From Chiayiivirga flava (GTDB lineage: Bacteria; Pseudomonadota; Gammaproteobacteria; Xanthomonadales; Xanthomonadaceae): a stretch of 64,000 nt of DNA. Each line of letters starts with the position of its first letter. Position 1 is the stretch's first letter. A program made the position numbers and the translations under genes. The stretch is from assembly GCF_014202825.1 (NCBI RefSeq), contig NZ_JACHHP010000003.1, positions 84,229-148,228 of the forward strand, given 5' to 3'. The notes beneath the pieces are model-generated. The model searched no databases. It was not told the DNA's origin and saw only the letters and a program-made list of their open reading frames with translations. This document shows, in pieces, positions 35,234-43,174 of the stretch.

Positions 35234-35375
35234 TCACGTTGCGGGTTTGGGTCGGGCGCGTTGCGGAGACGGCGAGAGGGGGCATACGCGCCGCCTCGTG
35301 TTCCAGCGACAGCAGTCCATCCAACCTGCAGTAACATCAGCAATTAACCGCAACAATCTGAGGTCCGGTCTCACG

Positions 35376-37703
35376 GTGGCACGCGCGCAGGGTGAAGTCA
35401 GGAAAGCAGCAGCAAATCCGCATCGACGCAGGGTCTGGCGCGAGAGCCTGATCCTGCTTGTGGTGCCGGTGCTGCTGTACCTGCTCGCATGCCTGCTGAG
35501 CTTCAGCAACGCCGATCCGGGCTGGTCGCATTCGGGCAGCGTCACCGGCGAGATCCAGAACTTCGGCGGCCTGGCCGGCGCCTATTTCGCCGACATCGCG
35601 CTGTCGTTCTTCGGCTTCGCCGCGTATGCGCTGCCGCTGCTGCTCGGCCTCATCATCTGGGCCGCGCTGCGCGGGCGCGAGGGCGACAACGAGACCGCGC
35701 TGACGCCCGCGTTGCGCCTCATCGGCGTGTTCGGATTCCTCATCGCCGCCTCGGGCATCGCGCACCTGCACCACAGTCCGGCCGGGGCGGATCTGCCGGT
35801 CGGCGCCGGCGGCCTGCTCGGCCAGCTTGTCGGTTCGCTGCTGCTGCGCGGCTTCGGCTTTCTCGGCGCCACGCTGTTCGTGCTGGCGCTGCTGCTGGTG
35901 TCGGTGACGCTCGCCACCGGCATCTCGTGGTTTGCCGTGATGGACCGCATCGGCCGCTTCGTGCTCTCGCTCGGCGGGGTGCTCGGCCGCAGCGCGAACA
36001 AGGCCGACGAATGGCGCGCGGCGCGCGCGGCCAAGGCCGAGCGCGAAGAAGTGCGGCGCGAGGACACGATCAAGCGCGCGAAGCGCGAGCCGGTGAAGAT
36101 CGAGCCCAAGCTGCCGCCGCCGGAAAAAAGCGAGCGTGCGCAGCGCGAGCAGCAGATTCCGCTGTTCAGCGTCAGCACGACGGCCACCGGCCTGCCGCCG
36201 CTGTCGCTGCTCGACGATCCGAAGGAGCAGCCGAAGGGCTACTCGCCCGAGACGCTCGAAACGCTCTCGCGCCAGATCGAGTTCAAGCTCAAGGATTTCC
36301 GCATCGAGGCGCAGGTGGTCGGCGTCTATCCCGGACCGGTGATCACGCGCTTCGAGATGGAACCGGCGCCCGGGGTGAAGGGCAGTTCGGTGTCGAGTCT
36401 GGACAAGGACATCGCGCGCGGGCTCAGCGTGAAGTCGGTGCGCGTGGTCGACGTGATCCCGGGCAAGAGCGTCATCGGCCTGGAAATTCCCAACGCCAAC
36501 CGCGAGATCATCTACCTCTCCGAGATCCTGCGCTCGAAGGAATACGACAAGGCCGCGAGCCCGCTGACGCTGGCGCTCGGCAAGGACATCGCCGGCCGGC
36601 CGACGGTGGCCGACCTGCAGCGCATGCCGCATCTGCTGGTGGCCGGCACCACCGGCTCGGGCAAGTCGGTGGCGGTCAACGCGATGGTGCTCAGCCTGCT
36701 CTACAAGGCCACGCCCGACGACGTGCGCATGCTGATGATCGATCCGAAGATGCTGGAGCTTTCGGTCTACGAAGGCATCCCGCATCTGCTCGCGCCGGTG
36801 GTCACCGACATGAAGGAAGCCGCCAACGGCCTGCGCTGGTGCGTGGCGGAGATGGAGCGGCGCTACAAGCTGATGTCGGTGTGCGGCGTGCGCAACCTCG
36901 GCGGCTTCAACAAGAAGGTGCGCGACGCGGCCGAAGCCGGCCAGCCGCTGATGGACCCGCTGTTCAAGCCCAATCCCGACCTCGGCGAAGCGCCGCGCGA
37001 GCTCGAGCCGCTGCCGTTCATCGTCGTCATCATCGACGAATTCGCCGACATGATGATGATCGTCGGCAAGAAAGTGGAAGAACTCATCGCGCGCCTGGCG
37101 CAGAAGGCGCGCGCCGCCGGCATCCACCTCGTGCTCGCGACGCAGCGCCCCTCGGTGGACGTGATCACCGGCCTGATCAAGGCCAACATCCCGACGCGCA
37201 TTGCGTTCCAGGTATCGAGCAAGATCGACTCGCGCACCATCCTCGACCAGAGCGGCGCCGAGACCCTGCTCGGTCACGGCGACATGCTCTACCTGCCGCC
37301 CGGCACCGCGATGCCCGAGCGCGTGCACGGCGCATTCGTCAGCGACGAGGAAGTACACCGCGTGGTGCAGCACCTGCGCGAAAGTTCCGGCGGGCCGAAA
37401 TACCTCGACGGTGTGCTGGAAGAAGTGCAGACGATGGCCGACGGCCAGGTGATCGGCGCCACCGGGCTGCCCGAGGCCGCGCCGTCGAGCGGCGATCCGG
37501 AAAGCGACGCACTGTACGACCAGGCCGTGCGCATCGTCTGCGAGACGCGGCGGGCGTCGATTTCCGGCGTGCAGCGCCGGCTCAAGATCGGCTACAACCG
37601 CGCTGCGCGTCTAATCGAGGCGATGGAGGCCGCGGGCATCGTTTCGCCGCCGGAGCACAACGGCGACCGCAGCGTGCTGGCGCCGCCGCCGCCGCGGGAT
37701 TGA
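35376..37703 (+). CDS. ftsK: DNA translocase FtsK (short form)
   Basis: This 775-residue hexameric ATP-driven DNA pump resolves chromosome dimers at the septum. The N-terminal region has four transmembrane segments ([21 protein letters not shown], then three more to about residue 195). A short basic linker and then the RecA-like motor follow, with Walker A GTTGSGKS at residues 424-431 and Walker [16 protein letters not shown]. The winged-helix gamma domain binds KOPS ([37 protein letters not shown]). The linker is much shorter than in E. coli (1329 aa). The GTG at 35376 was chosen as the start because it directly precedes the membrane region. The 5' end is uncertain by some tens of bases. Confidence 0.94.
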
Positions 37704-37900
37704 TCGGGGCGTCGCCGCGGTCGCAAGCACAGCCGGTGACGTGGGCCGCCGGTTGTCGCTGATCCCGCCGCGTTCGATGTTGCGGCGGTTCGTGGCGTCT
37801 CACCGGCACGACCGCGTACCGCTGTCGGCAGCAACGCGCGCGCCCACCGCATCGCAGAGCGCGCCGATCCGTCCGGATCGAGCGCGTCGTCGCGACGCAT

Positions 37901-38171
37901 CCTTGTCCACACATGCTGTGGACAACCCTGTGCGCCGGGTTGTGGACGCACGCCTGCAGGCAAGGCGCCATGCGGGCTTGCGGCATTTCGAGCACATGTT
38001 GATCGCCCCGATGCGCGCCCCGTTTCGAGACGGCGGCGCGCATTCCCCGGAGTGCGCCCCGCCTTGTCCACACAGTCTGTGGACAACCCTGTGCGCGGGC
38101 GTGTGGACGCGCGTCTGCGAGCGAGCCCGGGTGCGGGTTTGCGGCAGTTCGATCAATTGTTGACCACGCCG
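37901..38171. repeat. Tandem array with DnaA-box-like sites
   Basis: The gap 37704-38320 contains two ungapped copies of a 110-bp unit (37901-38010 and 38062-38171), about 79% identical (23 mismatches) and 161 bp apart. Each begins with a pair of convergent nonamers, TTGTCCACA and TGTGGACAA separated by 5 bp: 37903-37911 with 37917-37925, and 38064-38072 with 38078-38086. Degenerate TGTGGACGC follows at 37941 and 38102. TTGTCCACA differs from the consensus TTATCCACA at one position. No gene is present. DnaA binding is inferred. Confidence 0.75.
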
Positions 38172-38320
38172 CATCCGCCCACCGATGAGCGATCCCGGGG
38201 CCTGTGATGCCGGACGCCCGGCGCGGAGAACCGCGCGGGCCGTCGCGGGCGCGCGTGTCGCCACGCCCGCGATTCATCGTGGCGATGGCACACTGCGCAC
38301 CCCTTCCGAGGACGCCCTCC

Positions 38321-38986
38321 ATGCGCACGTCGTCTCGCTTCCTTCTGCTCGCCGCGGCGCTGCTGGCCAGTACGCTGCCGGCCATCGCATTCGGCGATGC
38401 GCGCACCACGCTGCAGCAGTTCACCGACGGGCTGCAGGGCCTGGACGGCCGCTTCGTGCAGCGCGTCTACGATGGCGCCGGCCGCATGAACGAGGAATCG
38501 CAGGGGCGAGTCGCGCTGTCGGCACCGCGCCAGTTCCGCTGGGAATACGCCGATCCGTTCCCGCAGCTGATCGTCGCCGACGGCGACCACGTCTGGATCT
38601 ACGACCCGGATCTGGAGCAGGTGCAGGTGCGCACGCAAAGCTACGAGGAGCAGTCGAGCCCGCTCGCGGCGCTGATCGATCCGGCCGAACTCGACCGTCA
38701 GTTCGACGTCTCCGACGGCGGCCCCGGCGATGGCGTGCAGTGGGTGGTCCTTGCGCCGAAAAGCGAGGACGCGCAGTTCGACAGCGCGCGCCTGGGCTTC
38801 GCGGGCGGTCAGCTGCAGCGCATGGAAATGCGCGACGGCCTGGGCCAGCGGACCGAAATCACGTTCGACGGCTGGAAACGCAATCCGTCCTTTGCCGCGG
38901 ACACCTTCCGGTTCGAACCGCCGGCGGGCGTGGACGTGATCGGCGAGGTCAAGAGCGGCGCGGAAGTGATGCCGCTTGCCGACTGA
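38321..38986 (+). CDS. lolA: Outer-membrane lipoprotein carrier protein LolA
   Basis: This 221-residue periplasmic chaperone carries lipoproteins from LolCDE to LolB. It has a signal peptide (MRTSSRFLLLAAALLASTLPAIAFG). Family features are GLDGRFVQRVYDGAG, SQGRVALSAPRQFRWEYADPFPQLIVADGDHVWIYDPDLEQV and PFAADTFRFEPPAGVDV (FAADTF typical). The ATG at 38321 is chosen for the signal peptide; earlier in-frame Mets lack one. Sits between ftsK and rarA as in many gammaproteobacteria. Confidence 0.95.
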   Translation: MRTSSRFLLLAAALLASTLPAIAFGDARTTLQQFTDGLQGLDGRFVQRVYDGAGRMNEESQGRVALSAPRQFRWEYADPFPQLIVADGDHVWIYDPDLEQVQVRTQSYEEQSSPLAALIDPAELDRQFDVSDGGPGDGVQWVVLAPKSEDAQFDSARLGFAGGQLQRMEMRDGLGQRTEITFDGWKRNPSFAADTFRFEPPAGVDVIGEVKSGAEVMPLAD

Positions 38987-43084: not shown

Positions 43085-43174
43085 GGAGAGATGGCCGAGC
43101 GGTTTAAGGCAGCAGTCTTGAAAACTGCCGTGGATTTGCGTCCACCGTGGGTTCGAATCCCACTCTCTCCGCCA
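43085..43174 (+). tRNA. tRNA-Ser (anticodon UGA)
   Basis: This 90-nt tRNA has a 7-bp acceptor stem (GGAGAGA / TCTCTCC), discriminator G and encoded CCA end (43172-43174). The anticodon stem is GCAGT/ACTGC around loop CTTGAAA, with anticodon TGA at 43119-43121. The long variable arm, TGGATTTGCGTCCA, is typical of serine tRNAs. The T loop GGTTCGAATCC is standard. It reads UCA. Confidence 0.97.

Follow-up and report, generated by a model that had tools for sequence, protein, structure and literature searches.

DnaA-reactivating sequences (DARS) are described, in the sources cited here, from E. coli and its near relatives, and the DARS2 homologues named in the legend to Fig. 8 of PMC8682772 come from seven E. 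coli-proximal species, of which Vibrio and Shewanella are the farthest. The DARS core, as presented in PMC8682772, consists of three DnaA boxes, boxes I and II being opposed and in contact head to head, an arrangement given in PMC5742627 as a prominent DARS feature. In E. coli DARS2, boxes I and II are reported as crucial and box III as needed for full activity (PMC4585315). PMC5742627 also refers to DnaA-box clusters of the datA type outside E. coli. In titles and abstracts of the open-licence literature, no description of a DARS beside priA, or in the family studied here, was found.

For comparison, the E. coli MG1655 regions were taken where PMC5742627 places the DARS sites (0.81 and 2.97 Mb), and box numbers were assigned by us from position and orientation. 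On this numbering, DARS1, in the bioD-uvrB spacer (NC_000913, approximately 813,107), reads TTATCCACT-N5-TGTGGATAA-N3-TGTGTATTA, while DARS2, in the rppH-mutH spacer (NC_000913, approximately 2,969,135), reads TTATTCACC-N5-TGTGGATAG-N3-TGTGAAGAA.

The window analysed here, a stretch of 64 kb, contains a pair of repeats that are probably satellite copies of a DARS-type module, a reading drawn from sequence comparison. Both repeats lie in the 617-bp spacer between two co-directional genes, with the following features:

35247 to 37703, plus strand: ftsK (name from the original prediction), upstream neighbour, open frame from TTG (putative start), adjoining lolA in 32 of 36 loci of relatives
37901 to 38010, plus strand: module copy 1, a 110-nt direct repeat (79%), matched by the family priA-module profile at 37900-37954 (E 2e-5)
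37903 to 37911, plus strand: predicted DnaA box I of copy 1, TTGTCCACA
37917 to 37925, minus strand: predicted DnaA box II of copy 1, facing box I across N5
37929 to 37937, minus strand: box III position of copy 1, TGTGCGCCG, degenerate, N3 past box II
37941 to 37949, minus strand: box IV of copy 1, TGTGGACGC, N3 past box III
37990 to 38004, no strand assigned: Fis consensus of copy 1, GAGCACATGTTGATC, at +87, perfect GnnYAnnnnnTRnnC
38062 to 38171, plus strand: module copy 2, a 110-nt direct repeat, matched by the profile at 38062-38110 (E 5.1e-6)
38064 to 38072, plus strand: predicted DnaA box I of copy 2, TTGTCCACA
38078 to 38086, minus strand: predicted DnaA box II of copy 2, N5 spacer
38090 to 38098, minus strand: box III position of copy 2, TGTGCGCGG, degenerate
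38102 to 38110, minus strand: box IV of copy 2, TGTGGACGC
38151 to 38165, no strand assigned: Fis consensus of copy 2, GATCAATTGTTGACC, at +87, perfect GnnYAnnnnnTRnnC
38321 to 38986, plus strand: lolA (name from the original prediction), downstream neighbour, matched in 193 of 198 family genomes

The two 110-bp copies, 79% identical, gap-free and 161 bp apart from start to start, had been noted in the original prediction, and both its coordinates and its figures were reproduced. The convergent nonamer pair with a fixed 5-bp spacer is indeed the exact TTGTCCACA / TGTGGACAA in both copies, and the degenerate third site noted at the time corresponds to TGTGGACGC at +38, the weaker sites at +26 being additional to it. 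Each copy is laid out as TTGTCCACA-N5-TGTGGACAA-N3-TGTGCGC, followed by box IV and then by the perfect Fis consensus; with the start of box I taken as +0, box II lies at +14, box III at +26, box IV at +38 and the Fis consensus at +87. The N3 separating box II from the box III position is CCC, and at the latter position TGTG is kept in each copy, with 4 of 9 bases fitting a DnaA box by our reading. As this weak +26 site sits between them, the minus-strand boxes II, III and IV follow each other head to tail with a 12-bp period. Identity between the copies is complete in boxes I, II and IV, falls to 8 of 9 bases in box III, 28 of 40 in the linker and 14 of 53 past +107, and the likeness thus ends just past the Fis consensus.

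The nonamer TTGTCCACA is the usual DnaA box of some GC-rich bacteria. It occurs nine times in the 4.07 Mb genome, compared with 11 occurrences of the reversed-pattern control, and is therefore not enriched genome-wide; four of the nine fall in the ftsK-lolA spacer, a clustering with a crude probability of approximately 5e-11. No cluster of like density was found in the rest of the genome; such clusters had been named in the original prediction as a point against it. The core pattern TNTNCACN-N5-TGTGGANAN-N3-TGTG has three matches in the genome (none for the reversed control), namely the two window copies and a site on contig C2 (G000:C2:488026) that has priA on one side and a sigma-70 region 4 gene on the other. 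The genome's single DnaA match lies on contig C2 and not on that of the window, so that the ftsK-lolA array is not the dnaA origin, as had been supposed from the start. The dnaA-dnaN spacer of this genome carries one exact TTATCCACA, and no pair was found in its folP-miaA region.

The third site, the genome's own priA module, is a single copy with TTATCCACA boxes, a full box III and a Fis-like site at +87. The window copies share its core spacing and the Fis-like site at +87 and differ from it in their boxes, their degenerate box III, their duplication and their neighbouring genes. In the family, 188 of 198 genomes, from 51 of 54 genera, carry the looser pair TNTCCACA-N5-TGTGGANA, with the reversed control matching in one genome. 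The G-variant pair, searched with spacers from N0 to N20, was present in 16 of 297 family genomes, and all 39 listed pairs had exactly N5. PriA adjoins 48 of the 55 single-site family loci that were fetched, folP adjoins two and neither gene adjoins five, one of which is at a contig end. By these counts the priA module occupies the conserved chromosomal place expected of a DARS, which the ftsK-lolA pair does not. Across the class, the core pattern was detected in 224 of 369 genomes and 172 of 272 genera, without a reversed-control match among the matches listed; in the 30 class loci that were fetched, PriA adjoins seven and DnaA lies within approximately 1.5 kb of none.

A DNA profile built from 41 priA-type family modules, leaving out the genome's own priA copy, matched that copy with an E value of 5.8e-25 and returned many matches to array modules (to approximately 5e-11), while only the two copies were matched in the 64-kb window. 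The same profile matched E. coli DARS1 over 90 aligned nt (E 2.7e-7), and it had no match at E<=1 to the DARS2 core and none to the genome's own dnaA-dnaN region. An exact pair in one relative (L033) reached an E value of only 0.33. The profile also weakly matched the DARS2 stretch directly before box V (E 0.026), which, from its place by box V in PMC8682772, would represent FBS2-3. In this stretch (L068 3814-3858), GGTTGGCGAAAGATCAACC before box V was observed to resemble the Fis-like palindrome of the priA modules.

The window copies have the same head-to-head boxes I and II across N5, followed by N3, as E. coli DARS1 and DARS2. DARS1 carries TTGGCG approximately 85 bp from box I, likewise seen in the family priA modules; unlike the window pair, it is a single copy with TTATCCACT/TGTGGATAA boxes between different genes. 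At +86 it departs from the Fis consensus by 4 mismatches, and its IHF match at +121 has 2 mismatches; both agree with the cited DARS papers, where only DARS2 needs IHF and Fis. DARS2, for its part, uses Fis and IHF beside its core (PMC4245941) and so resembles the priA modules, yet its Fis region lies approximately 180 bp from the core, compared with 87 in the window copies, and its IHF sites IBS1-2, described as essential, have no counterpart in them. The window copies are consequently not filed as DARS2, given that their best IHF match has 2 mismatches, the Fis element being present by sequence. Boxes I and II of the window also depart, by a G at position 3, from the E. coli consensus TT[A/T]TNCACA quoted in PMC8682772.

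The Fis consensus GnnYAnnnnnTRnnC (PMC4245941) has 70 matches in the window and is therefore weak when taken alone; its strength lies in position. The 15-mers of copies 1 and 2 differ at 4 bases and both fit the consensus. The 119 modules in all are kin, so that their counts are not independent; the perfect Fis consensus is found at +85 to +87 in 30 of them, whereas the offsets from +35 to +83 average 0.08 each. A TGG...CCA palindrome is present at +82 to +89 in 44 of the 47 priA-type modules, where the fit to the Fis consensus (no mismatch in 5, one in 10, two in 29 and three in 3) makes it Fis-like only; in the 72 other modules 25 are perfect and 34 have one mismatch. An IHF consensus with at most one mismatch occurs at +118 to +127 in 42 of the 47 priA-type modules (17 perfect; 3 of 47 at a control offset). 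The genome's own priA module is among the five without it, its best match having 2 mismatches, and no IHF site with at most one mismatch was detected in the ftsK-lolA spacer. In the 30 class loci, a perfect Fis consensus was found at +85 to +87 in 10, and an IHF consensus with at most one mismatch at +118 to +122 in 16, other offsets being occupied as well. Separately, a second peak was seen at approximately +51 of the priA-type modules, where the sequence of 35 departs from the Fis consensus by at most one mismatch but is GC-rich, and a TGCGC-type motif is seemingly conserved.

Extra copies and tandem arrays arose at other loci, mainly between folP and miaA. Pairs at folP-miaA were found at 14 loci in four genera (g12, g16, g42 and g45), with at most 11 pairs per array. 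Box III of the arrays, in the correct orientation, is mostly TGCGGACAG or TGCGGACAC, at N3. Arrays of up to 11 pairs lie at L027 5386-7473 and L025 5540-7617 in genus g16, and show the arrangement of the window pair writ far larger. Eight g16 loci hold a single pair between genes for a luxR-type regulator and a hybrid kinase, and two g16 genomes hold a further array of five pairs (L130 4770-5545 and L131 5103-5878), which in L130 has UPF0093 and alkaline phosphatase genes as neighbours. By the miaA start of L013, L016 and L027, a degenerate TTCTCCACA-N5-TGTGGAGAA was observed exactly 114 bp past the pair nearest miaA.

Conservation of the nonamer pairs in relatives, on which the original prediction also depended, thus holds for the pair and not for its location. 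The profile (E<=1) was applied to 36 ftsK-lolA loci, seven from named relatives and 29 from among the 192 other family genomes in which LolA was matched; no module was found in the 32 loci with the gene pair, and it was absent from all seven LolA loci of the named relatives. By LolA, the best named relatives belong to the order Lysobacterales, and Arenimonas to the family Lysobacteraceae, which is the probable placement of the genome itself. The lack of a profile match at these 36 loci indicates that the ftsK-lolA placement is, as far as we have looked, special to the genome's own lineage.

In four relatives with both places listed (G038, G100, G137 and G172), lolA lies at 0.44 to 0.48 of genome length from dnaA, and the window pair is therefore probably terminus-proximal. 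The position is read from relatives only, as the window's own contig (C3) shows a weak GC skew and a search for dif-like sites, allowing up to 7 mismatches to the consensus, found none. Among single-contig relatives, six (G038, G095, G100, G137, G172 and G251) have the priA module at 0.27 to 0.69 Mb from dnaA, and G292 has it at 2.75 Mb. In the latter, a single-contig g16 genome, the priA, miaA and luxR loci all lie at distances from dnaA unlike those of its relatives, by rearrangement or as an assembly effect.

The genome encodes Hda (220.2 bits, curated cut-off 194.8) and Fis (104.1, curated cut-off 99). Domain IV of its DnaA is identical to that of E. coli at 62 of 94 positions, and the E. 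coli DnaA-box contact residues that were checked are unchanged except for K443, which is V; opposite E. coli R227 the alignment shows Q, and opposite H136 a gap.

The original prediction had offered three functions for the array, those of datA, of DARS and of ftsK/lolA control. The DARS branch is favoured because the window copies share their spacing with both E. coli DARS sites and because one profile matches them as well as DARS1; on these grounds the window pair may reactivate DnaA in the cell. The full module, with TTATCCACA boxes, Fis-like palindrome and IHF site, would be ancestral beside priA, and the ftsK-lolA pair a second platform, specific to the lineage and built on weaker boxes of the G variant. 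Such boxes, the weak box III and the loss of the IHF site point to a site of reduced strength or different tuning, or to decay.

Decay is the most serious of the alternatives, albeit an unlikely one: copies of the priA module would have jumped or been duplicated into this spacer and would now be inactive. The degenerate box III, the missing IHF site and the emptiness of the location in 32 relatives are all consistent with this, but the copies do not differ in boxes I, II and IV, and both Fis consensuses are perfect, where the linker and the sequence past +107 have diverged. A datA-like site for DnaA titration or ATP hydrolysis is less probable again. As with the window pair, datA is a chromosomal DnaA-box cluster away from oriC, such clusters exist beyond E. 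coli, as mentioned above, and the two copies together place eight box positions in 208 bp; however, the head-to-head pair has DARS spacing, and datA fits worse because its DnaA boxes enclose the IHF site (PMC5742627), whereas the best IHF match in the window spacer, between boxes or elsewhere, has 2 mismatches. DnaA/Fis-dependent control of ftsK or lolA transcription, to which the intergenic position between co-directional genes would lend itself, is improbable given that the module adjoins unrelated genes in relatives (priA, folP-miaA, the luxR-type regulator and hybrid kinase, UPF0093 and alkaline phosphatase); no sigma-70-like promoter or terminator was found in 37680-38340 either, although GC-rich genomes may use other signals. 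An RNA hairpin, a REP-type palindrome or a binding site for some unknown dimeric regulator would account for the perfectly complementary box I/II arms and 5-nt loop in the window, and is very improbable: boxes I and II vary separately, on which ground the RNA hairpin is rejected, the arms cannot pair fully in 8 of the 30 class loci, box I of E. coli DARS2 (TTATTCACC) departs from TGTGGATAG, the genome holds no further copies of the pair, and the only Rfam match of the window at gathering thresholds is a tRNA gene (43085-43171).

An RNA element, a phage origin and a coding role were also set aside. For 16 loci of relatives, Rfam at a relaxed threshold returned one tRNA, together with miRNA, snoRNA and sRNA matches that were weak and fell below gathering scores; blastn against the phage collection returned nothing; and open frames run over the repeats, whose 161-bp period is not divisible by three.

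If the window repeats are DARS-type satellites, ADP-DnaA would dock head to head on boxes I and II via its AAA+ domains, and boxes III and IV would recruit more protomers head to tail. Fis would bend the DNA and aid the complex, upon which ADP would leave DnaA and the freed DnaA would take up ATP again.

On a wider scale, we consider it an even proposition that the module represents a compact DARS type of approximately 135 bp (I-N5-II-N3-III, Fis at approximately +86 and IHF at approximately +121), ancestral by priA and spread in the Gammaproteobacteria, which in this Lysobacteraceae-like family seeded G-variant satellites and arrays of up to 11 modules, including the ftsK-lolA pair, as second, later-replicating platforms for recharging DnaA. 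Should the module prove functional, the recharging of DnaA by DNA would be far older and wider than E. coli and its near relatives, and its usual address would be beside priA. As the module can be copied into arrays, its dose would then be comparable between natural genomes, while the fixed sites at +86 and +121 make it a short and portable object for understanding how Fis and IHF help the release of ADP from DnaA.
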